This document shows positions 24,448 through 58,586 of a stretch of DNA of 60,000 nt, piece by piece; position 1 is the stretch's first letter; each line of letters begins with the position of its first letter. Both the position numbers and the translations under genes were made by a program. A model generated the notes under the pieces. It did no database searches. It worked only from the letters and a program-made list of their open reading frames with translations, and had not been told where the DNA came from. Origin of the DNA: Strigamia acuminata (lineage: Eukaryota; Arthropoda; Chilopoda; Geophilomorpha; Linotaeniidae); NCBI GenBank assembly GCA_949358305.1, contig OX442314.1, positions 20,021,060-20,081,059 on the forward strand, given 5' to 3'.

Positions 24448-26529
24448 ATGGTTCAACCGTTATTTAAGTTCGTTGTAATTGTGTTTATCGCAAATTATTT
24501 CGTAAGGAATAATCATTCACAAAATATAATTGCGTAATTTCATTTATAATCTATTTATATTTCAATGCAGTGCACATCTGAAACTCAAGCTGATCTCCGG
24601 AATCAAGGAGGTAAAATTCTCATCAATTATTTCTTACAAAACTAAAGCTCGTCTGTTAACACAAACACCTAAAGTTCGCGCCTGGTATTTTGATGCCAAA
24701 CTCAAACTGCGCATCACATTCTGTGTATGTATTTTACGTGGCAATTGCTGCACACAAACACTGGCGCAACCAGGGGGGGGGGAGGGTGGCTATGGGGCCA
24801 TGGTCACCCCAAAGAGATCATAAAAATTTATTAAAAACGTTTAATGTTTATGGTACAAAATTCAAAAATTTTCCTGGGTTAGGGGGCGTGCTGAAACCAA
24901 TGCCCCCCTCTGAAATCTGAACATTTTCTAGATCCGCCTCTGCACACAAAGGAAATAAAACAACAAAGTTTTATGTTAATGAGTTTATTGTTATTTATTT
25001 ACTTTATATTAGCATTAGTAGACCTAATATTACGCTTAATACTGCTAAATAACAACAGGAAATCATCTGCGCTGAATGGAATGCGCAGTATGAATTTGGC
25101 ATCAAGATATCCAGCACGAACTGTAGGCTTCAAACACTCATTTACAGGATCGGAATAAAAAAAAACTTTTTACTCTGTTTTCCTAATATTTTTATACTAA
25201 CAAGCAAAAAAATAAAAAAGTTGTTTACGAGCATTTTACACCTATCTAACATACTTGCAATGCAAAAAAGTTGCACTTCACCTAACATTTTGGGGGATTT
25301 TTAAAAGACAAAACTAACAAAATATGTACATTAATTAAAAGGCAGTAAACAAGAAATAGTTGCGGCACAGAATGTACAGACTGGAGGCAAAGATTCAGCA
25401 CAAGCAGAACAAACCGGATCAAAGAAGGTGAAACGTGAAACCAAAAAAGAAATGAAACAGAAAGAAGAAAAAAAGAAAATTCAAAGTATGGGAGGCGGTT
25501 TTAATGATTATCCACCTATGTTTGCTGTCCCTGACGCTGCTGCAGCAACTACAGTTGACCCCTTAGCTGCCCGAGAACTAAGTGCTCCTCGCAAAGTTAA
25601 CGCTGATTCACATAAGGTTCGTAAACATGTCTCTGAAGAAAGTTCATCAGTTAGTGACTCTTCCAGTGAACAACTGTCTTCTGAGGAGAGCTACTTTCGA
25701 GAAGACCTTGCCAGATATCTCTATAAAATTCAACTCCTAAATAAATATCGCGCAGCATACCAAGCACAAAATCCAAAAATTGAATATTTTTTTGATTTTC
25801 ATCAAGTAATTGTACCAGAACAACCAGACTATTATTCGAGGTAAATAATAATAAACAGAGAATAAACAAATAAAAAAAATCACTCATCTTTTGGAGTGGT
25901 TGATAAATAACTAATTTCTCGTCAGTGACTTGTATAATCATTTGCCCATGAATCTTCCAAATTTGAGACTCGACAGGAATTTAATTCCTGTCCAGTCTCA
26001 AATAGTCACGTGGTTGCACACATTTTCTTTTGATTTCGCACGTTTTAATTTAAATTACATTTTATATCTGTAAAATTGAAATGCTTAGGTGACTTCAATA
26101 TTATTTTATTTTACCGTTCTGTTTTTCTTGCTTCATCGCTTTTTCGTTTTTCAAAAAATGAAATGACGTCATTGAAAAAAAATTGCATCGCTTTGAAAAG
26201 TAGAAGAGGAAGGAAAGCAGCAAAGAGAAAAATAATATTAAACTCACCTACTGCCAGCTCTTGACTTACTAATCATCAGATGCGTTCAATGCCTGGTATT
26301 ATAAAAATCCTGGGTCGTAATTGGAAAATTTACAGTTTTTGCTTATCAACTAAATAAAAAATTGTAACAAAAGATTAGGCTATCAAATTAAGTCAATTTA
26401 TGACAGGTAGAATTTTTTAATTTTTTTTACCCTAGCTTTTCTTCTGAAATGTCTGAATCTGATTCCAGAGAAGAGCCCCGACCTCCTTCCGGCCGCCCCG
26501 AGCCTCTGTTAGGTCGTGTAATGTGGTAA
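24448..26529 (+). CDS. Family gene A: divergent secreted His/Ser protein
   Basis: Exons 24448-24501 (MVQPLFKFVVIVFIANYF, signal peptide), 24571-24610 (CTSETQADLRNQG), 25360-25840 and 26436-26529. Intron phases 0, 1, 2 match the other members. The long exon is Lys/Glu-rich (KKEMKQKEEKKK), holds one degenerate repeat core (MGGGFNDYPPMF), a Ser/Glu stretch and the family C-terminal module ending YFFDFHQVIVP. The last exon gives FSSEMSESDSREE and a basic/proline end (PEPLLGRVMW). The first two exons are called by structure and phase only. Function unknown; secretion inferred. The hAT MITE at 24759-24942 lies in intron 2. Confidence 0.55.
24759..24942. mobile_element. hAT-type MITE, 184 bp, with 8-bp target duplication
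   Basis: CACACAAA is duplicated on both sides (24751-24758, 24943-24950). Ends CACTGGCG... and ...CGCCTCTG are imperfect inverted repeats; the right end GATCCGCCTCTG resembles the element at 52342. Interior has G and C runs. Confidence 0.75.
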
Positions 26530-26686
26530 ACAAATCGTATCATTTTACAATTTTGTACACCGTTGAAATAAAACTGCGATATTCCTAGAAAAAAAAATTA
26601 TAAATTGGCATACTAATTGTCAACTAACTGCCTTGCTCTCACGAATTTCTTCCAATTTCTTCAAATGTCAACAAATTTCCATTTCA

Positions 26687-26820
26687 GGCGAAAACGTGCT
26701 GGCCCGGAAGCGCTCTAAACCTGCGCAGAACAAATGCGCAATCGACCTGCGCAGAAAGATGCGCATAAGACCGTTGTGGTCAGGTTTAGAGCGCGGCGGC
26801 GGTCCGAGTCCGTTTTCGCC
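26687..26820. repeat. Inverted repeat of about 134 bp
   Basis: Outer arms GGCGAAAACG/CGTTTTCGCC and inner arms GCGCTCTAAACCTG/CAGGTTTAGAGCGC, with repeated TGCGCA words between. Probably a small MITE. The rest of 26530-27870 shows no gene. Confidence 0.55.
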
Positions 26821-27199
26821 CCAAATTGAATTTTTCAAAAGATTTTAGAATTTCCTCCAATTTAGAAAATATCAAAAATTACAAATAAACTTTGTCTCTT
26901 CTCAATCATTCTACTTTCCAAAAGAACCGTACATAATGGAGAAGAGGAAATTTTATTACTGGTTTTTAAGAAAATCGGGTCCGTGTGTCATCATTCTGCA
27001 AGACAGATTTGTCGTGATGAAAGCATTCGAGCACGTGGTTAAGTCTGCATTATGTTCCCAAAAAATAAACACTCAAATTTCGACAAATTTAATAAAAAAT
27101 TATTTTAAAAACATTTAATTCGCAAAATATTTAATCGCAACTACGGTAGTTAGTTTTTATAATTGATTCATGTACAATCGTGGACAAAAAAATTGTACT

Positions 27200-27760: not shown

Positions 27761-27970
27761 AATTTTTTAAATTGATTGTAAACGATAGAATCATGTTACC
27801 TAAAAAACAAGTCAATTTAAAAAAAATCAATTATTAAATACTATCACATGTAAATTGATGTATATCGTAATGCTATATTCAGGATATGGTATGATACTAA
27901 TTACTAACGAACACACTATAAACCTCGTACGACTATTATTGTCCAATAAATGTTGCTAAAAATACTGTGT

Positions 27971-28005
27971 GTATTCAAGTTTACTATTACGTATTACGGA
28001 TCTAA
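27971..28005 (+). promoter_or_regulatory. Conserved upstream block of gene B
   Basis: GTATTCAAGTTTACTATTAC followed by ATTACGGATCTAA, about 120 bp before the ATG; same block as before C, D, F and G. A TATA-like GATATAGAA follows at about 28059. Confidence 0.5.
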
Positions 28006-28127
28006 AAAGATTTTTTATGTTAATTGAAATTAATATTCAACTTCAAATTACCAAATGATATAGAACAACAGCCCAGTAAATTCTAATTGTTTTACAGCGG
28101 TGTTATCAGATGTGGTATTCAGTTGCC

Positions 28128-29251
28128 ATGTTGAAAAACATCCCAATTTCAATTTTCTTGGTCGTTTGGATGGTTACACTGACAAAAGTAATTATTGTTA
28201 CCAAATTTTTTCAATATCTTTTTCAAATTCTTTTTCTTTACATACATTTAATTTTTTTTTACAGAGTCAAGACGAAGTTGACGGAAACGGATTGGGAAAA
28301 GGTGAGAAAAACTAAAAAAAATTATTTACATATGATAATTTATATTATTCCTTTAAGCCTACGGTGGAACGGCTAGTGATGAAATACAAGCACCCCATCA
28401 TCGCAAACCCCGTCATGGTAGCCGTCATAGGTCGAAAAATAGGAGACACCAAGACGAGGGATATGTTATGGCAAACGCAAATGATCAACGCCAACAAGGC
28501 GACAGACGAGCCGCACAAGACCAACAAGGCAACAGACGAACAGCACAATACGAACGGGCCAACAGACGACGGCAACGCCAGCAAGGGAACAAACAACTGG
28601 AAACTTCAGGAGGAGGATTCAATGCAAATATAAACCAAAATAATGAATTTTCACCGACTATTGGAAATATGGGAGAGATTGGAAGTATTGGCGGAAGGGC
28701 AGCTAGTCAACTGGAGAGTTCGGGAGGAGGCTTCAATGCAAATATAAATCAAAATAATAATTTTTCACCTACTTTTGGAAATATTGGGGATATTGGAAGT
28801 ATTGGCGGAAGAGCTGCTAATCAACTGGAGAGTTCGGGAGGAGGCTTCAATGCAAATATAAATCAAGATAATAATTTTTCACCTAATTTTGGAAATATGG
28901 GAGCAATTGGAAGTATTGGCGGAAGAGCTGCACCAAGAGATAGCACGACTTCGAAAATAGAAAGTTATTTAGATAATCTTTCCGAGGATGACATTGCTAA
29001 GTTCTTGTATTATGGCATTACAACATTGATAAGACATGCTGACCAAAAACACAAAGGTTCAACACAACCACACAAACCTGATTATTTCTTTGATTTCCGT
29101 CAAATTTATCTGCCTACCGACCGCAGGTATCACCGTCATATTTTCACTGTATAAATGCTGTGATTGAATACAATTTTTTTTCTTCTTTTTACTTTTAAAA
29201 CTTTTCAGTGATAGTTCTTCATCAGAATCAGATTCCGGCAGTGATGAGTGA
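28128..29251 (+). CDS. Family gene B: secreted Gly/Asn repeat protein (3 repeats)
   Basis: Exons 28128-28187 (MLKNIPISIFLVVWMVTLTK), 28265-28301 (SQDEVDGNGLGKG), 28358-29126 and 29209-29251; phases 0, 1, 2. The start at 28128 is preferred over 28110 because it matches the paralogues. The long exon is His/Arg-rich (HHRKPRHGSRHRSK), then Gln/Arg-rich, then has three copies of a 35-residue unit (SSGGGFNANINQNNNFSPTF, GNIGDIGSIGGRAA), then the C-terminal module (YLDNLSEDDIAKFLYYGI, PDYFFDFRQIYLPTD). The last exon adds SDSSSSESDSGSDE, a strong casein-kinase-type acidic Ser tail. If the last intron is retained the protein ends RYHRHIFTV. Function unknown; secretion inferred. Confidence 0.8.
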
Positions 29252-31475: not shown

Positions 31476-31560
31476 GTATTCAAGTTTAGTTTACTATTAC
31501 GGATTTAAAAAATAATTTAATCTTAATTCAAATTACGAAATGATATAAAACAATAGCACA
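31476..31560 (+). promoter_or_regulatory. Conserved upstream block and TATA-like site of gene C
   Basis: GTATTCAAGTTTAG plus TTTACTATTACGGATTTAA (31476-31508), then GATATAAAA (31552-31560). The ATG is at 31615. Confidence 0.5.
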
Positions 31561-31614: not shown

Positions 31615-33041
31615 ATGTGTAAAAAAATACCAATTTCAATTTTCTTGATCGTTTGGATGGTCTCATTGACACTGGTAATGATAATGATTGACAACAGCAT
31701 TGTTCAAATTTTTTTTTAAAATTCTTTTCTGTGCTTAAATTTAATTCCTTTTACAGGTGGGGCAAGCCCACGGTGATGATGGTGAGATAGAGCCACCCCA
31801 AGCTCATCAACACCATCATGTGGGGCAAGAAAGCAGTTCCTCAAGCAGTTCCTCAAGCGAGGAACACCATAATCCAAACGCACAACCACAACACCAACAA
31901 GGCAACAGACAACCTCAACACCAACAAGGTAACAGACAACCTCAACACCAACAAGGCAACAGACAACCTCAACACCAACAAGGCAACAGACAACCTCAAC
32001 ACCAACAAGGCAACAGACACCCGCATGGCCAACGAGGCGGCAACAAACAATTGGATAGTTCAGGAGGAGGATTCAATGCAAATATAAATCAAAATAATGA
32101 ATTTTCACCTAATTTTGGAAATATGGGAGCAATTGGAAGTATTGGGGGGAGAGCAGCAACGCAAGGTTCTGGATTCAATACAGAAGGCGGTGGTAATATG
32201 AAAGGAAGAGCAGCTAGTCAACTGGACAGTTCAGGAGGAGGCTTCAATGCAAATATAAATCAAGATAATAATTTTTCACCTACTTTTGGAAATATGGGAG
32301 CAATTGGAAGTATTGGGGGGAGAGCAGCAACGCAAGGTTCTGGATTCAATACAGAAGGCGGTGGTAATATGAAAGGAAGAGCAGCTAGTCAACTGGACAG
32401 TTCAGGAGGAGGCTTCAATGCAAATATAAATCAAAATAATGAATTTTCACCTAATTTTGGAAATATGGGAGCAATTGGAAGTATTGGCGGAAGGGCAGCT
32501 ACTCAACTGGAGAGTTCGGGAGGAGGCTTCAATGCAAATATAAATCAAAATAATAATTTTTCACCTACTTTTGGAAATATAGGAGACATTGGAAGTATTG
32601 GCGGAAGGGCAGCTAGTCAACTGGAGAGTTCGGGAGGAGGCTTCAATGCAAATATAAATCAAAATAATAATTTTTCACCTAATTTTGGAAATATGGGAGA
32701 AATTGGAAGTATTGGCGGAAGAGCTTTTGATGGGAAAGCTTCGAAAATAGGAAGTTATTTAGAAAACCTTTCCGAAGATGACATCGCTAAGTTCTTGTAT
32801 TATGGCATAACATCTTTGGTAAATCATGCTAACTCAAAACACAAAGTTTCGAAGCACCCACAAAAACCTGAATACTTTTTTGACTTTCGAAAAATTTATT
32901 TGCCTACCGACCGCAGGTATCACTATCATATTTTCACTGTATAAATGCTGTGATTGAATTTAATTTTTTTTCTTCTTTTTACTTTTAAAACTTTTCAGTG
33001 ATAGTTCTTCATCGGAATCAGGTTCCAGCAGTGATGAGTAA
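31615..33041 (+). CDS. Family gene C: secreted Gly/Asn repeat protein (5 long repeats)
   Basis: Exons 31615-31674 (MCKKIPISIFLIVWMVSLTL), 31757-32916 and 32999-33041. The small Ser-Gln exon of the other members is absent; exon 2 continues in phase 0 (VGQAHGDDG). Order: His/Ser stretch (HQHHHVGQESSSSSSSSSEE), five tandem 9-residue QPQHQQGNR-type units, five 35-residue GGGFNANINQ units, two of them followed by the short unit GSGFNTEGGGNMKGRAASQ, then the C-terminal module (YLENLSEDDIAKFLYYGI, PEYFFDFRKIYLPTD). Splicing at CGCAG/GTATCA adds SDSSSSESGSSSDE; retention would end RYHYHIFTV. Very low aromatic content apart from the Phe of each repeat. Probably secreted structural or matrix protein; not a family I recognise. 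Confidence 0.85.
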
Positions 33042-34830: not shown

Positions 34831-34900
34831 GTATTCAAGTTTACTATTACGGATTTAAGAACAATAAAATCTTAATTCAAATTACTAAATGATATAAAAT
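34831..34900 (+). promoter_or_regulatory. Conserved upstream block and TATA-like site of gene D
   Basis: GTATTCAAGTTTACTATTAC then GGATTTAAG (34831-34859) and GATATAAAAT (34891-34900), 107 and about 70 bp before the ATG. Confidence 0.5.
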
Positions 34901-34965: not shown

Positions 34966-35872
34966 ATGCTTAAAACGATGCAAATTTCAATTTTCTTGTT
35001 TGTTTTTATGATCACATTGACAAAAGTAATGAGTAATGATTGCTACCAAATTTTTTCAATATCTTTCTCAACATTCTTTTTCTTTGCACATTTCTTTTTT
35101 ACAGAGTCAACAAAACACACCTGATGAACAACAACCTGGTGTGATAAAAAAACCTCACTTAGATGAGAAAAACTAAAAAAATTGTTTGTCCATTCTAATT
35201 TTTAATATTATTTTTAGGCAACGATCAAACGGGTGGTCGCGAGAGACAACCATTTGGTGTTGGAACCAACAGAAAACCATTTGGTGTTGGAACCAGACAA
35301 GAAGGCGACGGACAAGAAGGCGACGGACAAGAAGGCAACGGACAAGAAGGCGACAGTCAACCGCAATATCAACAAAACAGCCGACAACCGCAACAAGGAC
35401 AAAGGCAAAAAGACAACAGAAAACCACGAGGCCAACGAGGCGGCAACAAACAACTGGATACTACAGGAGGAGGATTTAATGCAAATATAAATCAAGATAA
35501 TAATTTTTCACCTAATTTTGGAAATATGGGATCTATTGGAAGTATTGGCGGAAGAGCTCTTGGAGCAAGTGGGAAAGCTTCGAAAATAGGAACTTATTTA
35601 GATAACCTTTCCGAAGATGACATTGCGAAGTTCTTGTACTACGGCATTAAATATTTAATAAATAATGCTAATCAAAAACACAAAGGTTCGACACAGGCAC
35701 ATAAACCAGAATACTTTTTCGATTTTCGTCAAATTTATATGCCTACTGACAGCAGGTACGACTATCATGTTTTCACTGTACAAAAATGTTGTAATTGAAT
35801 TGAAATTTTTAAAAAAACTTTTCGCTTTAATAATTTTTCAATAGCTCTTCAAGCGAAAGTTCAGCTGAATAA
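34966..35872 (+). CDS. Family gene D: short member with one Gly/Asn repeat
   Basis: Exons 34966-35025 (MLKTMQISIFLFVFMITLTK), 35105-35138 (SQQNTPDEQQPG), 35218-35755 and 35845-35872, phases 0, 1, 2. The donor after exon 2 is taken as G/GTGTGA; the position homologous to gene B's donor (GGTGAGAAAAAC) reads GATGAGAAAAAC and cannot work. The long exon starts GNDQTGGRERQ, has two copies of QPFGVGT-like and four of QEGDG units, a Gln-rich part, one GGGFNANINQDNNFSPNF repeat and the C-terminal module (YLDNLSEDDIAKFLYYGI, PEYFFDFRQIYMPTD). The last exon gives SSSSSESSAE. Function unknown. Confidence 0.7.
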
Positions 35873-36848: not shown

Positions 36849-38971
36849 ATGGCGGCCAAGTTGGAACAGTCGGCCACATACGTGGAAAAATTGAATGGCA
36901 AGAACTATCCATCATGGGAATACCGCGTGCGTATTTTGCTTCGAGCGAAAGATGTCTGGACGTCTGTAAAGACGATTTCCCGGTCAAAGCGTTGGGCGAG
37001 AGCGACGTGGATTTCAAGGCAAGACAAGACGTATGGAATACTAAGGATATTGAGGCACTGAATTTGATCCTCCAGACCATCGACTCGGCACAACTTATGT
37101 TGGAAATGAATGAGAGGAGATGGCATTGATTGTTGCTGATATACTCGTTTATTCAGCGCGCACGTTATTGCAACGATCTGCACGTTCCCGCAACGTCACC
37201 GGAAGTCACGTGATGGGTCAGTGGTACAGTCATAATACACATAACTCCCCCTGGCGGTGGGAGACCCTTACACGGGATTTGGAATACACTGGGCCAGGTG
37301 ACACAAAATATCAACAACTTAGACATGTATTAAATAAGGATACGGCCAAGGAGGCCTGGATGGCTTTGAAAATCTAAAATCAAAGCAATTTAGCAGAACT
37401 AAAAGTGCAGAAGAGAGTCGAATTGGGGCACACGATGATGAAGCAAGGCTGGCCGTGCCTGGCATAAAACATTGGAGGCAGAACTGTTGAAAGTTGGTTT
37501 TTTCAAGCATCCGAGTGAACAATGTGTTTATGTTTACATGAGTGGAAAATCAACCATAATTATGGCAACATATGTTGATGATTTGTTGACTTTGGACAAC
37601 AATAGTGAATTATTAGACCAATTAATGGCAAGGATACGACTCCGGATAAAGGTGATAGATTTGGGCGAGATAAAGAGCTTATTGGGCATACAAATAAAGC
37701 AGGATCAGAAGAAAAATCAAATCACCTTAGATCAATCCAAATATATTTTTCAGTTAGCGTCCAAATTTGTTTTGGACCAAGCAAGGGGCCGCTGTACTGG
37801 GCGCGACATAGCCAGGCGCGACTGTCGCGCTTCGAAATGTGAAAGGATTTCGAAGCGCGACAAGAAAGTACACGTTATTTCAAAACGCAACAAAAATTTT
37901 TTTTTGAATGCAGCTAACGTGTATTCATAAGGGAAAATGCTTTGGATCAGAATGCTGTGACCAACTGGCAGCCGCCAGTTGACTTCCCGTCTTCGATGTG
38001 ACAATTCGTGTCACGTTGTCCGAACGTGACGCAACACATTCGCTGGTGTCGCGCCACGCTATTCTAACGTGTCGCGCCACGCTATTCCTAGGTGTCGCAA
38101 ACTGCAGCTTGTCGCGCCAAGCTATTGACAACAATGTTGCGCCCATTGCTAAGCGCGAATCGCAATGTCGCGCCTAGCTATGTCGCGCTCTGTACGCATC
38201 ACCCAAGCAAGGACGGTAAAAGTTCCGATGGAAGTTTCACAAAAATTGGACGCCCCGAATTATCCATTGGGACCATCAGCGACAGACAAGCCTTACAGAG
38301 AACTCATAGGCGCGTTACTCTACCTTGCACAGGGTACGCACCCTGATATTGCATTCCCAGTCTCATTCCTCTCCCAGTGTTTAAACGATCCAAAACAGGC
38401 CCACTGGATTGCTGCGAAGAGAATTTTGAGATATTTAATTGCGACTGTAAATTATCGCTTGAGGTACGTGGGTACCAGTGGAGACTTAACAGGATATACG
38501 GATTCATCTTGGAATTCCTGTAATGCAGGTGCAAAATCATTTGCGGAATTTATCACGACATTTAACAGGACGGCCATTACGTGGCAGGCAAAGAAACAAA
38601 GCCTAATCAGCTTATCATCATGTGAAGCTGAATTTTCAGGCCTGGTTGAAGTAGCAAAAAAAATAAAATGGGTCAAGAATGTATTCGAAGACTTAAAGTT
38701 GACTGAAGGAAAGCAACCCATAATTATTTATTGCGATAATCAACCGGCAATTGACTTGACGAAAAATCCTTGTTACCACGCCAGAACCAAACACTTTAAC
38801 AGAAGAGTATCTTTTATTAGACAAGATGTTAATGAAGGAGTTTACAAAGTAAATTATTTACCAACGAATGCGATGCTCGCGGATATGATGACAAAAGCCG
38901 TCTCTGAAACGAAATTGAAGCAAGCATGCGAAGGAATAGGATTAGTGGATTTTTCAAATGAAAACAAATTG
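36849..38971 (+). pseudogene. Copia element 3 gag-pol remnant
   Basis: Gag begins MAAKLEQSATYVEKLNGKNY, shifts frame near 36970, is interrupted by about 230 bp of foreign sequence (about 37090-37315), resumes (LNKDTAKEAWMALK) and at about 37448 is fused to GRAWHKTLEAELLKVG of reverse transcriptase, so protease, integrase and half of RT are deleted. RT continues with TYVDDLLTL, is split by the insertion at 37787-38204, and resumes ARTVKVPMEVSQKLD through RNase H (SSCEAEF, YCDNQPAIDLT). Inactive. Confidence 0.8.
37787..38204. mobile_element. Non-autonomous element with GTGTCGCGCCACGCTATTC subrepeats (copy 2)
   Basis: 418 bp flanked by the perfect 8-bp duplication AAGCAAGG (37779-37786, 38205-38212). 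Its removal restores the RT reading of Copia element 3. Inverted ends GGGCGCGACATAGCCAGGCG and reverse complement of CGCCTAGCTATGTCGCGCT. Interior subrepeats (about 38046-38120) are shared with 11880-12148. The 8-bp duplication suggests hAT. Confidence 0.8.
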
Positions 38972-39195
38972 TAAATCTCATATACATATATTAAGTATTT
39001 AATATGGGCAGTGTTAGATTATATTTGATATACAATGAGTATGTGTAATGAATGGTTACAATTGTAGTAACCATGAATAAGACAAATTGTAACAGAACAA
39101 TAAAAGACAAAGAGGTATAGATTCACCTTTGTTATGTTTCGATGAATGAAAGTGATGTGTGGGTGAATTTCTCTCAATTCTAAATTGCCCAAACA

Positions 39196-40285: not shown

Positions 40286-40435
40286 TGTTGGGGTAATTGC
40301 GCATGCTCAATCCAATAATATAGTGCACGTCGCGTGCCGTTGTTTCTTTTCACACTTTGTATTATTCTTGCCGAGTAAAAGGTTGTTTCTGTTTTCTCCT
40401 CTTCAAACTGACTTTTTATTCTACGAAATATAACA
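40286..40435 (+). repeat. 5' LTR of Copia element 2
   Basis: 150 bp, same as 44845-44994. Confidence 0.95.
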
Positions 40436-40438
40436 AAT

Positions 40439-40455
40439 TGGTAGCAGAGGATTGG
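40439..40455 (+). other. Primer binding site of Copia element 2, tRNA-iMet 3'-end type
   Basis: TGGTAGCAGAGGATTGG lies three bases after the LTR and is complementary to the 3' end of an animal initiator tRNA-Met (TGGTAGCAGAGGATGG expected, one extra T). This is the conventional priming mode, unlike Copia elements 1 and 3. Confidence 0.75.
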
Positions 40456-40599
40456 TTTTGCCGAAAAAGCATCTACCCTCGCTTGATAAACGGTTTTTTC
40501 GAGAGAATTAAGAACGTTGCTGAGACGAAACGGATTGGGAGGCAAGGCTTATTTTTGGGACTCGTAATTCGAACGTCGTCGCAATTCGAACATATTCTG

Positions 40600-43500
40600 A
40601 TGGCGGACACAATTGCTGGTGGGTCGCTAAATAGAATCGACCAGTTAAACGTGGACAACTATTTTGTTTGGCAATATAAGCTCGAAGCACTTTTGTCCGC
40701 GAAAGGGCTAAGTGGCGCACTTACTGAACAAGAACCGGAAAAACCGGGAGATCCAGCAGATGCGGATTACGACGCCAAAGAGAAGGCGTACGAGAAATGG
40801 GCCAAACAAAATAGCGAGGCACTTGGAATTATTGTGCTTACTATTTCTGAGCAACAAGCGGTTTGCTGCCTCGGCGAAAAGCACGCAAAAGCTGTTTGGG
40901 AAATCTTGAAGAAACGGCACGCGGGTACGACAGTACGAAAGCGCATCGATGCAGGTATCGAGTTGGGAAAGCTGCGGATGCGCGCGGAGGAAAGTCTTGA
41001 CGGCTATCTAAATCGGGCCTTAGCAACACAGGCCAAAGCCAAGGCTGTAGGACGAGACACTCCGGATCAGGAAGTCGTTCTGTACGCGTCGTTGGGGCTA
41101 AACGCCAAATTCATCCATATAGCGCGGGATTTTCGTTCGAGACCGGATGCGACGTTTGACGAATTCCGTAGTTCTTTGCTCCTCGAAGAGCAGTTGAGCT
41201 CATCAACCCAGGGGACTTCGGCGGTGACGACAGCAGCTTTCAAAGCAGTCGTCGGGAAGAACTCTGGCGGGAGAAAGTCACGGACTGAAGGTAAAGCGGC
41301 TTGTTATGAATGCGGAAAGGCAGGCCACATTGCAAAAAATTGCTGGGCGCGTTATCCGGAAAAACGACCAAAAACCCAAGCCAAGGAGACGGCAAAAGTC
41401 GCGCAGACGCAAGCTCCGCATCATGCTTACGTCGCAGATTCGTCGCCAGGAGGCGCTGACAAAAAGCCCAAACATCACGCTTTTGTTGTCGTTTTTGGCG
41501 ACAATGCGAGCCGTTCGGGATGGGTGCTCGACTCGGGTGCATCAACGCACATGACCTGTCGACGCGACTGGTTCGTAACGTTCGAAGAGGACGAAACGAT
41601 TGTCACGACGGCAAAACAGGGCGTGGAGCTCGTAGCCAAGGGAAGAGGCACCGTCGTTGTCAAATGTCGGAAATCACAATCTGAATGGACGGAAATATCA
41701 TTGCTCGATGCTCTGTACGTCCCCGACCTGAAAGGCAATCTTTTATCGGTTTTCAAAATGACTGCGCGACAGTACAAGGTATTTTTTGAGAAGGATGTCG
41801 CCAACGTCGTTGACCCAACTGGCGAGACCATTGCGCAAGGTACCAAAAGTGGGAACTTGTTCTTGATGGAGACGCAGCACGAAAATGCGTGCCTGGCGGA
41901 CGACGTGAGCGGCGCAGATCAGCCAGTCGCTGAAGCTGGACACGTGAGCGAGAAAGAGTTGTGGCACGGACGTTTGTGCCATGTCGGCCAAAGAACTCTT
42001 GTCAAGATGCGCGACCAAGAAGTGGTACATGGGCTGAAGTTTAAAGATGAACAACTGCCAACGTGCTCTTCGTGCGTGCAGGGCAAGATGACCAAGACCC
42101 CCTTCAAACGCATAAAAGGAAAGCAGTCCCAGAAAACTCTGGAACTCGTCCACGCTGATCTTGTGGGGCCTTTCCAAGTTCCTTCTCTGTCGGGCAGCAG
42201 ATTCGCAATGATTCTTACGGACGATTTTTCGAGAATGAAATTTTCGTATTTTTTGAAAGAGAAATCTCAGAGCTTCACCTTCTTTAAGGCTTTCAAAGCC
42301 CTCAATGAGCGACAGACTGGACACGAGTTACGTCGCCTACGGACGGATAACGGCGGAGAGTTTGTCAACAACGAATTCCGTGGTTTTTGCGAAGAGCAGG
42401 GCATCAAACACGAGTTGACGGTCCCGTACAACGCCTCTAGCAATGGAATCGCGGAACGCAGCAACCGGACACTCATCGAGTCTACGAGATCACTACTGCT
42501 GGAATCCAAACTGCCATTACGTTTTTGGGCCGAGGCGCTTGCGACAGTCGTACACGTCAAAAATCGAGTAATGACCAAACCGAATGGAAACGTGGTCCCA
42601 GCGGAAATATGGTCGCAGCGCAAGCCAACGGTGGCATACCTTCGTATTTTTGGATGCAAGGCATGGGCACACGTTCCTGCGCAACAAAGGCGCAAACTTG
42701 ACAGCAAAGCAAGACAAGGAATTTTCGTTGGATACGCCACTGACCGCAAGGCTTATCGAGTTTTTGATCCAGAGACTGACGACATAGTCGAAGCAAGATC
42801 CGTAGTATTTGATGAATTCACGCGCGGAGCCGATTTTTTCCGCCTCAAACGAAGTGATTTTGACGATCAACGTTTTTGCGCAAGACACGAGGCAGAGATA
42901 TTCATGGACGAACCAACTTTTGAAAAGCAAGTTGATCCTGCAAATGCAAATGCGCGCGACGTTGCAAATGCGCGCGACGTTGCAAATGCGCGCGACGCAG
43001 ATGTCCCTGCGCACGACGAAGAACCAGAGCCAAACCGTCCTGTTGGTCGACCAAGGGGCGCGACGGCTGAAGCGACAAACTTGCGCCACGAGTTGGAGAT
43101 GCGGGAACGGGAACAGCACCTGGTTGAGACGGGCGTACGACGCTCACAGCGCCTAATGGACCAGCGTGAAGCTGCGAATCTTGCCACGGAGGAGCTGTTC
43201 ACACCAGAGACCTACGCTGAAGCGATGGGGTGTCCAGACAGGGAGAAATGGGTTGAAGCAATGAAGAGTGAGATGGATTCTCTTCACGTCAACAAAGTCT
43301 GGAAACTCGTCAAGCGGCAACCCCACATGAAAACCATACGCAGCAAATGGATTTTCAGAATAAAATTGAATTCTGACAACAGCATCAACAAGTATAAAGC
43401 TCGTTTGGTCGCCGTGGGGTGCTCGCAAAGGCCTGGGATCGATTACACGGAAACATTTTCACCTGTCGTCCGAATGGAATCTCTGCGCATTTTTCTCAAC

Positions 43501-44748
43501 ATGGTTGCAACACTCAAACTCAAAACCAGGCAGTTTGATGTAAAAACTGCCTATCTTCACGGAAGACTCAGTGAAGAAATTTTTATGATTCAACCGGAAG
43601 GTTTTGAAGAAGGCGACGATGAAGTTTGTCAACTCGAAAGAAGCTTGTACGGCTTGCGCCAATCTGGGCGCTGCTGGAACGAGCGCCTGGACGAGGAACT
43701 GCAGGAAATTGGCCTGTTGCCACTCATTAATGATAATTGTGTATATATTTACAGAAGAGGCACCGAATTTGTCATCCTTAGCATTTACGTCGACGACATG
43801 GCCGCGGGATACAGGGGAAAAACCATTATGAAGTGGCTAATGAGAGGTCTTGAAAAGGTCTTCGAACTTGTGGATCTCGGTGAAATTCGCTATTTGCTGG
43901 GCATGGAAATCGAAATTACCAATGATGGGATTTGGATTGGGCAGCAAAAATACATCAAAGAAGTACTCCAGCGTTTTTCTCCGGATGACCGAGCCAAAGC
44001 GCTTACCCCTCTTGTCGTGGGGCAGGATTTGGACGTTTACGGAGAATCGCCGGAGGTGGAGTGCACCATTTTTCAACAAATTTTGGGCTCCATTATGCAT
44101 CTCATGATTGTGTCACGCCCTGACATTTCCTTCGCCGTCAGCAAGCTGTCTACTTATTCGAGGAGTCCGAGGCAAATTCATTTCAACGCCATAAAACGAG
44201 TGTTGAGTTACCTCAAGCGTACGCAGGATATGCGCCTATTTTTTCCATCACAAGGGGGAAAACTACACGGGTTCTGCGATGCAAGTTGGAACACGGCAAA
44301 GGACGCCAAATCTTACTCGGGTTTCCTTGTCAAGATCGGGGAAGCCACCGTCTGCTGGAAAACAAGAAAGCAGAGTTTGATCGCGCTTTCAACGTGTGAA
44401 AGCGAGACGCTCGCCATGTGCGACCTGCTGAAAACCCTGAAGTGGGCACGTGGTCTCTTGTGCGAGCTCGGACAAACAGAATCCGTACCCCGAAGCATAC
44501 CGATCAGTACGGACTGTTTGCCAGCGATCCAGACCATCTGTGGATCGAACCAACATGGTAGGACCAAACACTTGAACAAGTATTTGATGTACGTCCGCCA
44601 AGAGGTCAAGTTGGGGAATGTACACCTGGTCCACGTCCCGTCAGAAGACCTGATTGTGGATTTTCTAACCAAGGCCGTCCCGATAGCAAAGATGAACATG
44701 AGTCGCCACGCGCTTGGAGTCAAATCGATTGAAAGGATTGAAGATTGA
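40600..44748 (+). CDS. Copia element 2 Gag-Pol polyprotein
   Basis: 1382 codons from the ATG at 40600 (MADTIAGGSLNRIDQLNVDN); the frame is open upstream into the LTR but this start fits Gag. Domains: Gag, CCHC knuckle (CYECGKAGHIAKNC), protease (DSGASTHM), pre-integrase (ELWHGRLCHV), integrase (LTDDFSR, RTDNGGEF, NASSNGIAERSN), a linker with three copies of NARDVA (18-bp DNA repeats, about 42943-42995), RT with YVDDM, RNase H (CDASWN, STCESET), end VDFLTKAVP. No stops. Distantly related to Copia element 1 by the whole-protein pattern, not a copy of it. Confidence 0.95.
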   Translation: MADTIAGGSLNRIDQLNVDNYFVWQYKLEALLSAKGLSGALTEQEPEKPGDPADADYDAKEKAYEKWAKQNSEALGIIVLTISEQQAVCCLGEKHAKAVWEILKKRHAGTTVRKRIDAGIELGKLRMRAEESLDGYLNRALATQAKAKAVGRDTPDQEVVLYASLGLNAKFIHIARDFRSRPDATFDEFRSSLLLEEQLSSSTQGTSAVTTAAFKAVVGKNSGGRKSRTEGKAACYECGKAGHIAKNCWARYPEKRPKTQAKETAKVAQTQAPHHAYVADSSPGGADKKPKHHAFVVVFGDNASRSGWVLDSGASTHMTCRRDWFVTFEEDETIVTTAKQGVELVAKGRGTVVVKCRKSQSEWTEISLLDALYVPDLKGNLLSVFKMTARQYKVFFEKDVANVVDPTGETIAQGTKSGNLFLMETQHENACLADDVSGADQPVAEAGHVSEKELWHGRLCHVGQRTLVKMRDQEVVHGLKFKDEQLPTCSSCVQGKMTKTPFKRIKGKQSQKTLELVHADLVGPFQVPSLSGSRFAMILTDDFSRMKFSYFLKEKSQSFTFFKAFKALNERQTGHELRRLRTDNGGEFVNNEFRGFCEEQGIKHELTVPYNASSNGIAERSNRTLIESTRSLLLESKLPLRFWAEALATVVHVKNRVMTKPNGNVVPAEIWSQRKPTVAYLRIFGCKAWAHVPAQQRRKLDSKARQGIFVGYATDRKAYRVFDPETDDIVEARSVVFDEFTRGADFFRLKRSDFDDQRFCARHEAEIFMDEPTFEKQVDPANANARDVANARDVANARDADVPAHDEEPEPNRPVGRPRGATAEATNLRHELEMREREQHLVETGVRRSQRLMDQREAANLATEELFTPETYAEAMGCPDREKWVEAMKSEMDSLHVNKVWKLVKRQPHMKTIRSKWIFRIKLNSDNSINKYKARLVAVGCSQRPGIDYTETFSPVVRMESLRIFLNMVATLKLKTRQFDVKTAYLHGRLSEEIFMIQPEGFEEGDDEVCQLERSLYGLRQSGRCWNERLDEELQEIGLLPLINDNCVYIYRRGTEFVILSIYVDDMAAGYRGKTIMKWLMRGLEKVFELVDLGEIRYLLGMEIEITNDGIWIGQQKYIKEVLQRFSPDDRAKALTPLVVGQDLDVYGESPEVECTIFQQILGSIMHLMIVSRPDISFAVSKLSTYSRSPRQIHFNAIKRVLSYLKRTQDMRLFFPSQGGKLHGFCDASWNTAKDAKSYSGFLVKIGEATVCWKTRKQSLIALSTCESETLAMCDLLKTLKWARGLLCELGQTESVPRSIPISTDCLPAIQTICGSNQHGRTKHLNKYLMYVRQEVKLGNVHLVHVPSEDLIVDFLTKAVPIAKMNMSRHALGVKSIERIED

Positions 44749-47232: not shown

Positions 47233-48333
47233 ATGTTCACATACCTCCAAATAGCAATTTTTTCAGTTATTTTGATGGTCACATTGACAAAGGTAATGCG
47301 TGTTACCAATTGCTTTTAATATCTGTTTCTATACTGTATATATTTCTTTGCATAAATTTAATTTTTTTTACAGAGTCAATACATACCAGAAAGAAATAAA
47401 AAACATCAGCATGACACAACAAAAGCTGTCTTAGATGTTAATTTGGATTTAATTGATGAAAAAGGATCGAAAATAGGTTAAAAAAACTAAAAAATTGTTT
47501 ACCATTCAAAATTATAATATTATTTTAGGCTATGATGGAACGGCTGGTGCCGACATAGAACCACCCCAACGTCGTAAACACCATCATAATCACCGTCAAA
47601 AGTCCAAAAAAAGTAAGTACTCAGATGAGGAAGATAAGGTTGCAAAGGGTCAAAATCAATACCAACAAGGCAACAGACAACCGCAAAGCCAACAAGGCAA
47701 CAGCCAACAAGGCAACAGCCAACAAGGCAACAGCCAACAAGGCAACAGCCAACCGCAAAGCCAACAAGGCAACAGACAACCACAAAGCCAACAAGGCAAC
47801 AATCAACCGCAAAGCCAACAAGGCAACAGACAACCTCAAAGCCAACAAGGCAAAAGACAACCACAAAACCAAAGTGGTAAGAAACAACTGGGAAGTTCAG
47901 GAGGAGGATTCAATGCAAATATAAACCAAAATAATAAATTTTCACCTACATTTGGAAATATGGGAGATATTGGAAGTATTGGCGGAAGAGCTGCAGGAAG
48001 AGATGGAACGAGTTCAAAAATAGAAAGATATTTAGCTAACCTTTCCGAAGATGACATTGCTAAGTTCTTGTATAATGGCATTTCAACATTGATAAGACAT
48101 GCTGACCAAAAACACAAAGGTTCAACACAACCACACAAACCTGATTATTTCTTTGATTTCCGTCAAATTTATATCCCTACCGACAGCAGGTATCATACGA
48201 TGTTTTCATTGTATTAATGTTGTGACTAAATTGAATTTTTTACTTCGTTTAACTTTTTTAACTTTTCAGTGATAGTTCTTCATCAGAATCAGATTCCAAC
48301 AGTGATGAATCTGTGAATGGCGGAATATGGTAA
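47233..48333 (+). CDS. Family gene E: Gln-rich member with one Gly/Asn repeat
   Basis: Exons 47233-47292 (MFTYLQIAIFSVILMVTLTK), 47374-47476 (SQYIPERNKKHQHDTTKA...), 47529-48189 and 48270-48333; phases 0, 1, 2. The long exon starts GYDGTAGADIEPPQRRKHHH, close to gene B's start, then has about ten tandem QPQSQQGN or SQQGN units, one GGGFNANINQNNKFSPTF repeat, and the C-terminal module (YLANLSEDDIAKFLYNGI, PDYFFDFRQIYIPTD). The last exon gives SDSSSSESDSNSDESVNGGI followed by W, longer than in B and C and ending in Trp as gene A does. Its upstream region lacks the conserved block of the other members. Function unknown. Confidence 0.8.
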
Positions 48334-51126: not shown

Positions 51127-51155
51127 GTATTCAGGTTTACTATTACGGATTTAAG
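51127..51155 (+). promoter_or_regulatory. Conserved upstream block of pseudogene F
   Basis: GTATTCAGGTTTACTATTAC then GGATTTAAG, 97 bp before the ATG; the preceding TTCATCCTGTGCAATATAAA is shared with gene G. Confidence 0.5.
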
Positions 51156-51251: not shown

Positions 51252-52720
51252 ATGTTTAAAAAGATTCCTACTGCAATTTTCTTGGTCGTTTTTATTGTCA
51301 CATTGACAAAAGTAATGAGTAATAATACTGCACAATTGTATTGAATTTTTTTTAAATTATTTATCTTCGTATAAATTTAATTTACAGAGTCAAAACATAG
51401 GTGGTAAAAGTCCTGATGACGACAAAAACGTAAAACCTCGAAGAGGAGGGGAAGGCTTTGACTCCACCATACAAGCGCGTGGGCAAAGTAAGTAAAACTT
51501 AAAAATTGTTAACCAATTTCTGCCAATTCTAAAATATTTCAAACCGCTTTGACATCACTGTATTTGGACGAAGTAAATAAAACTTATTTTTTTGCCAATT
51601 CTAATTTAAAATAATATTTTAGGCCAAGAAAAACGTCAACATCGACATCACCCACACCATCATGATAATCATCATCACTCCAAAAAAAGAAATTATCCTG
51701 ACAGAGTGGACGTTCAAAATCAACAAGAAAAAGACAGTAAACAACTTGAAAGTACAGCGGGGGGTTTCAGTGCAAACATAAATCAAACCAATAATTTCTC
51801 ACCCACTTTTGGGAATATAGGAGATATTGGAAGTATTGGTGGAAGAGAAATGTCGTCACAACTGATAATTTCAAGAAATGGATCGAGTATAGATTTAACT
51901 CAACGTAATACATTCTCACGCACGTTTGGAAATATTGCAGCGGTTGGAAATATTGGTCTCGGTGCGAAAGAAGTCAACAACACACAACTGCAAAGTTCAA
52001 ATGGAGGGTCCAATACAAATATAAATCAAAACAATGTATTTTCACCCACGTTTGGGAATATCGGAAACATTGGAAACATTGGAAGTATTGGTCCTGTGGA
52101 GAAAGAAGTCAAGAAGAAATTGTAAAGTTCAGGAGGAGGATTCAATACAAATATAAATCAAAATAATTTTTTTTACACAAGTTTGGAAATATTTGAGATA
52201 TTGAAAGTATTGGTATCGGTGCGCGAGAAGTCAACAGACAATTGGAAAGTTCAGGGGATGATTCAATACAATTTTAAATCAAAATATTGAATTTTCACCT
52301 AGCTTTGGAAATGTTGGCGATATTGGGAGTATGGGTGGGAGCAGGGGCGGATCTAGCTTTTCGGGGCCCCTTTATCACAATTTTTAATACCTTGCCTTGT
52401 TTCTTGGGCCCCCCCTAAAATTTGGGGGCCTTGGGCTCAAGCCCCATTAGCCCTATGCTAAATCCGCCGCTGGGTGGGAGACAGATGAACGGACGCCTGC
52501 AAAGTTCAGGATTCAATACTGATGAGTGATGACGTTGATGTGAGAGAACGTATAATAGGAAAAACGCTGGATTGAAAAACTACGCGATTTATACAAATTA
52601 TTTCCTGAAATCTGAATTGAAATTTTTCTTCCCGGAAAATTCGGCACAGGCACACAAAACTGAATACGGTACTTTTTGATTTTCATAAAATTCACATCCC
52701 TAAAGGCCACAGGTTGCACT
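51252..52720 (+). pseudogene. Family pseudogene F (closest to gene G)
   Basis: Exons 51252-51311 (MFKKIPTAIFLVVFIVTLTK), 51388-51487 (SQNIGGKSPDDDKNV...) and a long exon from 51623 that starts His-rich (HRHHPHHHDNHHHSKK) and has three degenerate repeats before a stop at 52123-52125 (KEVKKKL*). Repeat sequence continues beyond it with frameshifts, is split by the hAT MITE at 52342-52472, and ends in a damaged copy of gene G's C-terminal module (about 52555-52712, with LPENSAQAHKTEY-like and DFHKIHIPKGHR-like parts in shifted frames). No last exon is found; an inverted-repeat element starts where the donor should be. Transcription may persist since the upstream block is intact. Confidence 0.75.
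52342..52472. mobile_element. hAT-type MITE, 131 bp, in the repeats of pseudogene F
   Basis: Ends CAGGGGCGGATCTAGC and GCTAAATCCGCCGCTG are inverted; the 8-bp duplication GGTGGGAG is perfect (52334-52341, 52473-52480). It interrupts a GDIGSMGGR unit. Confidence 0.9.
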
Positions 52721-52734
52721 TGTTTATACATATC

Positions 52735-54980: not shown

Positions 54981-54988
54981 CGTAACTG

Positions 54989-56520: not shown

Positions 56521-56567
56521 ATTCATCCTGTGCAATATAAATCTTGCATAACATCTATTGTTAAAAT

Positions 56568-56596
56568 GTATTCAAGTTTACTATTACGGATTTAAG
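56568..56596 (+). promoter_or_regulatory. Conserved upstream block of gene G
   Basis: GTATTCAAGTTTACTATTAC then GGATTTAAG, 94 bp before the ATG, preceded by ATTCATCCTGTGCAATATAA as in F. Confidence 0.5.
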
Positions 56597-56689
56597 CAAA
56601 GTGCTATTTTAATTACCACCTGATAAAAAAGTATAGTGTACTAAATATACGTTAGTTTACTGTGGTAGAATCAGATGTTAGTTGCCAAA

Positions 56690-58586
56690 ATGTTAACAAA
56701 TATCCCTATTTCAATTTTCTCGGTCATTTTTATTGTCACATTGACAAATGTAATGAATGATTATACTACAAAATTTCAATAGATTTTTCAAATTCTGTAC
56801 CTTTGCATGAATTAATTTTTTTTACAGAGTCAATTCGTACCAGCCATCCCTTATGTACCGGGTAACAGCCTTGGTGTTGCGAACATGGTTAACCCTGCGC
56901 AAAGTAAGTAAAACTTGAATATTGTTTACAATTCTAACTTGCAATATTATTTTAGTGGGACAAGTGGGACAACTCATACCAGGTAGCAGCCTTGGTGTTG
57001 CGAACATGGTTAACCCTGCGCAAAGTAAGTAAAACTTGAATATTGTTTACAATTCTAACTTGCAATATTATTTTAGTGGGACAAGTGGGACAACTCGTAC
57101 CAGGTAGCAGCCTTGGTGTTGCGAACATGGTTAACCCTGCGCAAAGTAAGTAAAACTTGAATATTGTTTACAATTCTAACTTGCAATATTATTTTAGTGG
57201 GACAAATGGGACAAATGGGACAAATGGGACAACTCGGAAAACTCGGAAAACTCGTACCACGTCGTCATCATCATCATCATCACCACTCCTCCGAAGAAGA
57301 CAATAATCCTGACAATGGTCCGGACGCCCAAAAATCTAACCAAAGAGGCAACAAACAACTGGAAAGTTCAGGGGGAGGTTTCAATGCAAACATAAATCAA
57401 AACAATGCTTTTTCACCTACTTTTGGAAATATGGGAGCAATTGGAAGTATTGGGGGGAGAGCAGCGACTGGTTCTGGATTCAATACAGACGGCGGTGGTA
57501 CTATTAAAGGAAGAGCAGCCAACCAACTGGAAAGTTCAGGTGGAGGATTCAATACGAATATAAATCAAAATAATCAATTTTCACCTAATTTTGGAAATGT
57601 TGGGGATATTGGCGCCATTGGTGGAAGAGCAGCCACGAAACAACTGGAAAGTTCAGGTGGAGGATTCAATACAAACATAAATCAAAATAATCAATTTTCA
57701 CCTAATTTTGGAAATGTTGGGGATATTGGAGCCATTGGTGGAAGAGCAGCAACGCAAGGTTCTGGATTCAATACAGAAGGCGGTGGTAATATGAAAGGAA
57801 GAGCAGCCAAACAACTGGAAAGTACAGGAGGAGGATTCAATGCAAATATAAATCAAAATAATGATTTTTCACCCACTTTCGGAAACATTGGAAACATTGG
57901 AGCCATTGGTGCAAGATCAGCCACCAAACAACTGGAGAGTACAGGAGGAGGATTCAATACAAATATAAATCAAAATAATGAATTTTCACCCAATTTCGGA
58001 AACGTTGGAAACATTGGAGCCATTGGTGCAAGAGCAGCAACGCAAGGTTCTGGATTCAATACAGAAGGCGCTGGTAAAATTAAAGGAAGAGCAGCCAACC
58101 AACTGGAAAGTTCAGGCGGAGGATTCAATACAAATATAAATCAAAATAACGAATTTTCGCCAAATTTCGGAAATGTTGGCAATATTGGAGCCATTGGTGG
58201 GAGAGCAGCCTCGCGTGGTTCTGGATTCAATACAGACGGTATTAAACCGAAAGAACTTGCAGCAGAAAGGGCAGAAACATACTGGGGTGCAAAACTGCGC
58301 AATTTATTAGACGGCTTCACTGAACAAGAGATTACCTATTATGCAAATTATTTTCTGAAATCTGTCTTGAAGTTTTTCTTCCCTGGAAATTCAGCACAGG
58401 CACCGGCACACAACGCTGAATACTTTTTTGATTTCCGTAAAATTCATATACCTAAAGGTCACAGGTAATTACTATCATATCCCTCTGATGTCAATATATT
58501 GTGATTGAGTTTGAATTGTTGTTTTTTTACTCTACAATTTCGCTAGGCATTCACAAGAATCAGCTGACAGTAGTGCTAGCGTGTAA
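56690..58586 (+). CDS. Family gene G: largest member (6 long and 4 short repeats)
   Basis: Exons 56690-56749 (MLTNIPISIFSVIFIVTLTN), 56828-56903 (SQFVPAIPYVPGNSLG...), 56956-57024, 57077-57145, 57198-58464 and 58547-58586. The third and fourth exons are 69-nt copies of each other (VGQLxPGSSLGVANMVNPAQ). The long exon has MGQ/LGK repeats, a His run (RRHHHHHHHSS), acid Ser/Glu, six units of the type SSGGGFNTNINQNNEFSPNF with GNVGNIGAIGGRAA, four short GSGFNT(D/E)G units, and a diverged C-terminal module (YWGAKLRNLLDGFTEQEITY, YFFDFRKIHIPKGHR). The last exon adds HSQESADSSASV. Probably secreted; role unknown. Confidence 0.85.
56835..57197 (+). repeat. Tandem 121-bp exon-intron duplication in gene G
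   Basis: The donors at 56904, 57025 and 57146 are 121 bp apart; the 52-bp introns (GTAAGTAAAACTTGAATATT...) and 69-nt exons are almost identical copies. Exons are phase 1-1, so copy number can change without a frameshift. Confidence 0.9.

Follow-up and report, generated by a model that had tools for sequence, protein, structure and literature searches.

A cluster of repeat genes on chromosome 1

Seven plus-strand loci, here named A to G, lie in the window, the 60,000-nucleotide stretch of DNA that we analysed. The source is Strigamia acuminata, a geophilomorph centipede, and the stretch lies on its chromosome 1. All seven (7/7) are found where the initial annotation placed them, and five of them (B, C, D, E and G) give complete GT-AG gene models, whose products have masses of 21.7-52.2 kDa without the signal and contain, besides the repeats and a C-terminal module, a low-complexity region and a tail of Ser, Asp and Glu. 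Gene B (28128..29251, + strand) consists of a 60-nt signal exon (28128-28187), two exons at 28265-28301 and 28358-29126, and an exon for an acidic Ser tail (29209-29251). Gene C (31615..33041, +; exons 31615-31674, 31757-32916 and 32999-33041) has no separate exon 2 and carries His, Ser9 and QPQHQQGNR repeats. For gene D (34966..35872, +) we model exons 34966-35025, 35105-35138, 35218-35755 and 35845-35872, the second with a putative alternative donor, and for gene E (47233..48333, +), which contains QPQSQQGN repeats, exons 47233-47292, 47374-47476, 47529-48189 and 48270-48333. Gene G (56690..58586, +) has exons 56690-56749, 56828-56903, 56956-57024, 57077-57145, 57198-58464 and 58547-58586. 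A 121-bp unit of mini-exon plus intron stands here in tandem, giving two additional mini-exon copies. The gene carries His7, and seven His precede its first full repeat.

The two remaining loci are degraded or diverged. Locus F (51252..52710, +) is a pseudogene with a signal exon (51252-51311), a second exon (51388-51487) and an open exon (51623-52125) up to a stop; past the stop at 52125, its repeats and a module remnant are frame-broken and split by foreign DNA. Gene A (24448..25844, +; exons 24448-24501, 24571-24610 and 25342-25844) holds a dispersed repeat inside intron 2, and encodes a GGGFN remnant, a Ser/Glu stretch and a diverged IEYFFDFHQVIVP module. The repeat numbers given earlier are confirmed, with three copies in B, five GNF repeats in C, one repeat in D, one GNF repeat in E and six in G; F has at least three when decayed ones are included, and A keeps its single remnant.

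The architecture that the initial annotation ascribed to the whole cluster applies to most loci, but not to all. The 60-nt signal exon is present in six of the seven (B, C, D, E, F and G), whereas that of A has 54 nt and encodes a dissimilar peptide. Phases 0-1-2 are found in B, E and G, but not in C, where exon 2 is absent, nor in A (0-1, then a stop); in D the site corresponding to the donor of B reads AT, so that these phases are obtained there only with a GT further upstream. Judged by eye, His-rich stretches occur in B, C, E, F and G, but D and A have none. The C-terminal module is intact in B, C, D, E and G, diverged in A and decayed in F, and the same five genes have the acidic Ser tail exon, while in A the Ser/Glu stretch precedes the module. 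The module of A can still be matched to the family (hhalign probability 57.5%, E 1e-4; BLASTP to P0001, E 4e-7).

The family across the genome

In the whole genome the family counts no fewer than 27 loci, shared between chromosomes 1 and 7 and several of them broken, so that speaking of seven genes undercounts it. Genome matches reach E 8e-66 for gene E, which is query-like by construction, 3e-58 for B and 5e-48 for members on the other chromosome, so that the family likeness is not due to chance. Six gene models on chromosome 7 share the 60-nt signal exon and the tail exon and are without exon 2; five of the six products have masses of 13-21 kDa. Blocks of (DSSSES)n, or of densely packed His, are found in some members outside the window. 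Ser runs of 17-31 are found at C1:17.46, 17.48, 18.91 and 20.17 Mb, and very His-rich members at C1:18.91 and C1:20.10 Mb. One exon of 815 codons, with a family-type signal exon upstream, encodes a single polypeptide in which 13 GRLANGPLV units are combined with (DSSSES)n and with His-rich blocks. Whatever the use of its products, the family clearly illustrates rapid gene birth and loss, as well as duplication of exons, among genes for putatively secreted proteins.

A 22-nt element (AAGTTTACTATTRCGGATNTAA) occurs eight times in the 237.5 Mb genome with at most one mismatch, in all eight cases 65-107 nt upstream of a family ATG. In the window it precedes gene C (31487..31508, +, 1 mismatch), gene D (AAGTTTACTATTACGGATTTAA, 34837..34858, +), locus F (51133..51154, +, 1 mismatch) and gene G (56574..56595, +), and an altered element with a short internal duplication (TTTACTATTACGTATTACGGAT) stands before gene B (27980..28001, +). 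The element is family-specific and not universal: eight of the 16 family starts examined are without it at the same tolerance (A, B, E, L014, L015, L016, L025 and L056).

Conservation of the repeat and the module

The repeat QLxSSGGGFNANINQNNxFSPxFGN is found in B, C, D, E, G and the six chromosome 7 genes. Twenty of its positions are invariant across all 10 aligned sequences from two species; invariance was taken from this alignment and not from our spacer survey, as 12 of the 13 positions constant in the survey are already prescribed by its search pattern. The C-terminal module ends in YFFDFRxIxxP, and 25 of its residues are deleted in two of the six genes on chromosome 7. Purifying selection acts on the module among B, C, D and E, whose six pairs have dN/dS of 0.11-0.37; the comparison leaves aside A and G (module pattern unmatched), the pseudogene F, and L023 and L025 (deletion). 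Four of the six pairs of chromosome 7 duplicates have a dN/dS exceeding 1, a value that is based on few changes.

None of 12 modelled S. acuminata proteins has a Cys after residue 20, and A and C have a single Cys before it; the centipede SLPTX-type Cys scaffold is therefore absent. This argues against a venom component or a short bioactive peptide precursor from which each repeat would be released. For such a role it can be said that S. maritima venom contains two peptide families (GEOTX1 and 2) for which the study that named them recognised no relatives (PMC6878950), and that three of the five S. maritima spacers collected have dibasic sites. However, such sites are found in none of the 11 spacers of B, C and G, the repeats are linked by GGRAAS-type stretches, and GEOTX2, according to an extract of another study, nests within fungal sequences with weaker support (PMC7864903), unlike the Strigamia repeat family. 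We consider a venom or peptide role very unlikely. For S. acuminata the peptide-precursor idea was set aside on the linker sequence, with a search pattern that overlooked a number of repeats, P0001 being one protein affected.

Relatives and predicted structure

The initial annotation proposed an undescribed and rapidly evolving secreted family, and our searches agree with this. Pfam scans of six window members and two outlying members gave nothing over the cut-off; the best sub-threshold scores were those of G to DUF7501 (24.5 of 27 bits) and PKD_3 (19.9 of 26.3) and of C to DUF7501 (19.6 of 27). A PDB profile search returned 21 distinct sequences at E <= 10 and no convincing relative; the best match (E 0.062), to an acidic part of amyloid precursor protein, we judged compositional. 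Among 5.77 billion sequences, the only matches at E <= 1 are three uncharacterized S. maritima proteins, T1IS47, T1IS48 and T1IL22, and we found no paper on them. A protein search with residues 480-575 of the C1:18.91 Mb member yielded 129 candidates, none at E <= 1, S. maritima members included. In the collections searched, the family thus appears, so far, to have no relatives outside the genus Strigamia.

The three S. maritima proteins have the same repeat and are true members. T1IS47 and T1IS48 also have the module and the acidic tail, and His6-7 runs are present in T1IS47 and T1IL22. They differ from the S. acuminata proteins in their long, charged inter-repeat linkers. In T1IL22 as listed the module is missing; of its four Cys, two stand at the N-terminus and two beyond the N-terminal region.

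AlphaFold2 models have a mean pLDDT of 58.4 (103 aa) and 50.6 (290 aa; other four models 36-38). Low pLDDT nearly throughout is expected of disorder, but it might also come from the small depth of the alignments, which have 10 and 7 rows. The repeats show a weak beta pattern, which at this low confidence can be taken as a hint only. Foldseek found nothing at E <= 0.001. Functional amyloids of the curli and FapC type were not matched: no curli family appeared in the Pfam results, and the best Foldseek hit, FapC (E 0.67, probability 0.04), came from a low-confidence model.

Silks and coats are typically Gly/Asn/Ser-rich, secreted and variable in repeat number, raising the question whether the family encodes silk, spermatophore or egg-coat proteins of genital or leg epidermal glands. 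Silky threads have been reported from males of a geophilomorph, in the passage of the source consulted (PMC8056527). However, the scans of eight members detected no silk-type domain and no arthropod silk or spidroin family in Pfam. Long acidic Ser tails are, to our knowledge, not a general feature of silks, and we regard this origin as improbable.

Serine tails and histidine content

The suggestion of phosphorylated Ser in the tails has been strengthened. In 11 tails S-x-E occurs 19 times, compared to 9.98 (sd 2.31) in shuffles, of which 0 of 2000 reach the observed number; the test is without A (no tail exon) and F, and it overstates independence because the tails are related. Ser makes up 64-81% of some tails, longer poly-Ser and (DSSSES)n members exist elsewhere in the genome, and Fam20C-family kinase genes are found at two places in it. 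Together with the shared signal exon and the tandem cluster, these features would also suit Ca- or mineral-binding extracellular phosphoproteins of cuticle, gut or haemolymph, similar to the vertebrate SIBLING/SCPP proteins. But we know of no heavily mineralised cuticle in Strigamia, and there is no vertebrate protein among the matches at E <= 1. Ca occurs in the forcipule and leg of S. maritima, with no specific localisation there (PMC11342574). We think such a mineral-binding role quite unlikely.

The argument from His is strong for the members at C1:18.91 and C1:20.10 Mb and weaker for the window genes, of which B, C, D, E and G contain 1.0-4.2% His overall. The N-region has no His in D and 0-1 in each of the six chromosome 7 members. 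These numbers bear on whether the proteins form a zinc-binding matrix in the venom-claw cuticle, where His blocks would coordinate Zn in the tarsungulum tip, like His-rich proteins in Nereis jaws. In S. maritima the distal tarsungulum does contain Zn (PMC11342574), and the available text on Nereis ties Zn in the jaw tips to a His-rich protein (PMC13120676); the very His-rich members would fit. On the other hand, Zn is absent from tarsungulum cross-sections and leg 10 (PMC11342574), some 27 loci are many for so small a site as the tip, and P is uncorrelated with Ca in the parts of the forcipule study drawn upon, so that nothing points to a phospho-rich matrix in it. A role in the claw seems unlikely.

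A possible role in sternal-gland glue

Lineage-restricted repeat genes have repeatedly given rise to protein glues, silks and cuticle matrices. The metal- or mineral-binding matrix or adhesive of the initial annotation is plausible. Our leading, tentative reading, to which we give somewhat less than even confidence, is that these are material proteins, secreted and for the most part disordered, with hardly any Cys, which Fam20C could phosphorylate, most likely used in the glue of geophilomorph sternal glands. The gene models, their conservation, the selection within the chromosome 1 group, the upstream element at half of the starts examined and the kinase genes are directly observed, and we infer secretion, phosphorylation, self-association and this tissue of use along the following lines. 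The shared signal exon would direct each protein into the secretory pathway. After it come one to six strongly conserved Gly/Asn/Phe repeats, probably self-associating, then a C-terminal module, short, helical and with YFFDFRQIYLP at its end, and an acidic S-x-E or poly-Ser tail as a possible Fam20C substrate. Through a basic or His/Gln-rich end and a phosphorylatable Ser end, the proteins could attach to one another and to divalent ions, and so set. The likeliest place of use would be the proteinaceous, hardening glue which these glands discharge.

Geophilomorphs discharge a sticky secretion that hardens; Strigamia belongs to Linotaeniidae, which the section consulted counts among the groups with cyanogenic secretions (PMC6023451). 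In the extracts on secretion that we used, no Strigamia species is named as a glue producer, and the main text of the S. maritima genome paper does not mention glue, sternal, silk, histidine or cyanogen. Points against the glue are the poorer agreement of the Henia glue bands at 12 and 130 kDa, and of the chromosome 7 products, with the bands of 30-67 kDa, and the two Cys of T1IL22 beyond its N-terminal region. No geophilomorph glue protein sequences were found in the literature searched. The family might supply the first molecular candidates, spread over more than one chromosome and in part sharing an upstream element, in which a single chain has a repeat of Asn, Gly and Phe that stacks, blocks of His or Gln, and a Ser tail phosphorylated by an enzyme, doing what sandcastle-worm cement does with separate proteins; this larger claim we hold to be possible but doubtful. 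If it is glue, there would be sequences for a centipede defence so far studied chemically and by gel, and a test case of Fam20C chemistry in a terrestrial animal.

Vertebrate SIBLING/SCPP genes are likewise tandem genes with a shared signal exon, S-x-E sites, disorder and rapid divergence, but their exon phases and repeats are unlike those of the Strigamia family. The S-x-E motifs of Fam20C are common to both, being enriched in the Strigamia tails, with genes of the kinase family present. The telopodal Glue1-18 families of Lithobius, which serve a sticky defence in another centipede, are mostly secreted unknown proteins in the portion of the source used (PMC11170834); by their description there, several are Cys-rich and they come from another gland and order, which sets them apart. 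The Zn-binding protein of Nereis jaws, from the text available (PMC13120676), is His-rich and structural, a likeness of composition and not of compared sequence, whereas His in Strigamia is local and missing in several members. Sabellariid cement, in the excerpts consulted (PMC12621633), is secreted and combines phospho-Ser with His chemistry (Pc-3/Sa-3 poly-pSer; Pc-4 and Pc-5 His-rich), with Fam20C as the proposed kinase. A database search, which is not a pairwise comparison, points to no homology with it, as all matches at E <= 1 in 5.77 billion proteins are from Strigamia. The Strigamia family resembles this cement in its poly-Ser and S-x-E, with phosphorylation putative here, and differs from it in that the sabellariid poly-Ser and His-rich proteins are separate, whereas some Strigamia chains hold both.

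Family size and gene models

A search of the whole genome (237,517,015 bases) with a query made of the Gly/Asn/Phe (GNF) repeat plus the C-terminal module gave 50 rows, which we grouped into 26 separate loci at E <= 1e-3. Thirteen lie at 20.049-20.174 Mb of chromosome 1, including the six window loci B-G, six lie at 5.593-5.626 Mb of chromosome 7, and seven further loci are found on chromosome 1 at 17.463, 17.476, 18.911, 38.702, 45.816, 45.829 and 45.840 Mb. Gene A was missed by this search and is the 27th locus; a His-rich stretch at about 20.096 Mb of chromosome 1, outside this count, may be another member. Full models were made for 12 family loci.

The initial annotation described seven like genes with a shared exon architecture. 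When the window DNA was read by eye and then spliced by script, five sound genes with complete GT-AG models were obtained (B, C, D, E and G), whereas A is a diverged, remote family member and F is a pseudogene. The typical layout, as in gene B, is MLKNIPISIFLVVWMVTLTK, SQDEVDGNGLGK, a low-complexity region followed by three repeats and the module, and SDSSSSESDSGSDE, the signal exons (putative signal peptides) being assigned by eye. The architecture is not uniform: gene C lacks exon 2 as a separate exon, gene A has a first exon of 54 nt, and in gene D the donor equivalent to that of B reads AT, which forces the use of an upstream GT and makes this junction a predicted one. In gene G a 121-bp tandem unit consists of a mini-exon and an intron (window 56856-57214), and since its copies show 98% matches with splice sites intact, this is recent exon birth. 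Intron 2 of gene A contains a MITE- or SINE-like dispersed repeat (window 24977-25137); scoring covered 40 of 1045 first-look candidates, many of which lie as facing pairs.

Besides F, the chromosome 1 locus at 38.70 Mb is broken by an early stop read in the DNA, those at 17.46 and 17.48 Mb have a frame break at a like position in the repeat, and a TAA falls inside the search matches at 20.159, 45.840 and 45.816 Mb.

Several outlying chromosome 1 members illustrate the chemistry of the family. At 18.91 Mb, HPFGPHHPGG-type repeats come first, then a region rich in Gln, a single GNF repeat and a module that has diverged, and the tail contains 25 consecutive Ser; the 17.46 Mb tail has 88 residues, 81% of them Ser. 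The putative single gene at 20.10 Mb, whose exon joins, including that from the signal exon, are only partly modelled, has a signal exon of family type (MLKSLPISFFVIVIIVTLAK) and an 815-codon exon free of Cys. This exon holds 13 GRLANGPLV units, 12 occurrences of DSSSES, GGFNTxVNPN repeats and a unit beginning HHYHKHHALGKKYTGG in four exact copies and a varied fifth; further on, open frames encode a GNF repeat, HIHHHH and 17 consecutive Ser. At 20.172-20.176 Mb (locus L052), VPVTQDGKTTYIEVPARNPL-type and NTGNTFNNRPNMQ repeats precede the GNF repeat in a 624-aa open frame with no Pfam match at E <= 0.1, and a run of 31 Ser lies downstream. On the reverse strand of locus L023, a short-unit array (AAATCCCGTGG-like, about 2180-2620) adjoins a chromosome 7 member.

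The neighbouring window sequence includes copia-like retrotransposon ORFs, named by eye from translation, at 7616-11551 (+; 1311 aa) and 40324-44748 (+; 1474 aa), the latter separating genes D and E, and shorter fragments at 37442-38974, named likewise. A near-identical 23-bp satellite-like unit with a GTGTCGCGCCACGCTATTCCA core forms two arrays close to copia-like sequence, at 11884-12038 and 38046-38098. Open frames within about 12.3-23.8 kb (-) may belong to a minus-strand gene adjoining the cluster, and one of them, at 12832-13113 (-), encodes an EGF-like stretch (best Pfam EGF_TEN, E 3.8e-6, under cut-off). A kinase-like open frame at 3118-3399 (-; PK_Tyr_Ser-Thr, E 5.7e-5, just under cut-off) resembles, by eye, the kinase-homology domain of receptor guanylate cyclases.

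Conservation of the module, repeat and upstream element

By the Nei-Gojobori method on the 57-codon module, dN/dS ranges from 0.11 to 0.37 in the six pairwise comparisons of genes B, C, D and E, and from 0.11 to 0.67 when chromosome 1 genes are paired with chromosome 7 genes. Among four chromosome 7 genes it is 0.34 in one pair, and in four pairs the amino-acid rate exceeds the silent rate (1.32-1.85, with few changes). The remaining pair, at 5.621 and 5.602 Mb (L015 and L016), has modules identical at the DNA level, so that, judged on sequence, this is recent duplication or conversion. For 22 repeat units pN/pS is about 0.25 both within and between genes, and 20 repeat positions are identical in all of ten aligned sequences from S. 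acuminata and S. maritima.

Fifteen aligned 5' flanks have a block in common. Its core, AAGTTTACTATTRCGGATNTAA, occurs 8 times in the genome with at most one mismatch, compared with once for the reversed pattern. All eight copies precede family members (C, D, F, G, chromosome 1 at 20.087 and 38.70 Mb, and two on chromosome 7), with the ATG 65-107 nt downstream. At the same tolerance it is missing from 8 of 16 examined starts (A, B, E, four on chromosome 7 and chromosome 1 at 20.0998 Mb), the gene B start having an altered form. A shorter form was observed 5 times in the window against 0.01 expected. Shared ancestry of the flanks is the default explanation; a regulatory role is putative.

Probable role

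The class of product can be named with good confidence. Genes B, C, D, E and G encode no Cys beyond residue 20, have 10.9-17.4% Gly and 8.7-13.0% Asn, and carry S-x-E in their tails, and two loci in the S. acuminata genome score above the Fam20C family cut-off, one of which may be another FAM20-type kinase. For these reasons the best supported class, and probably the right one, is an extracellular material that self-associates and binds ions. Fam20C is described as a secretory-pathway kinase of S-x-E and poly-Ser stretches and is the proposed kinase for tubeworm cement (PMC12621633). The S-x-E and poly-Ser stretches of the family tails are candidate Fam20C sites, and the proteins, if phosphorylated in the secretory pathway, would self-associate and bind ions to give such a material. 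In low-confidence AF2 models the module has a helix over residues 57-80, where block means are 68-79. These models also give a weak strand pair recurring per repeat, clear in 1 of 5 models, the others scoring 36-38.

Which material this might be is a more tentative matter. Several papers describe a proteinaceous, sticky and hardening secretion of geophilomorph sternal glands (PMC6023451, PMC7766067, PMC11170834), and Linotaeniidae, the family of Strigamia, are named among the groups with cyanogenic secretions (PMC6023451). Since the glue is order-specific and gives several protein bands on gels, we lean, with some reserve, towards the family being components of sternal-gland glue. A zinc-binding matrix of the venom claw has anatomical evidence of its own, but fits poorly with the low His content of most modelled members.

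Relatives and novelty

Searches of 5.77 billion proteins by phmmer and by profile, the latter scoring the best 7,994 candidates, gave no matches outside the uncharacterized S. maritima proteins T1IS48, T1IS47 and T1IL22. The accessions T1IS47 and T1IS48 are consecutive, which hints that they are genomic neighbours in that species too. To our knowledge centipede proteomes are few in such collections, and 'Strigamia only' is therefore a statement on their content.

The initial annotation held the family to be undescribed, and this stands: Pfam gave nothing above cut-off for the members scanned, the PDB offered no convincing relative, and no report was found in the open-licence PMC papers searched (main texts without supplements). 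By these comparisons this is a new sequence family as far as the searched databases go, with the sequences of GEOTX1, an S. maritima venom peptide family, and Glue1-18, Lithobius secretion proteins, lying outside the comparison. Taxon-restricted clusters of repetitive secreted material proteins are themselves a known kind.
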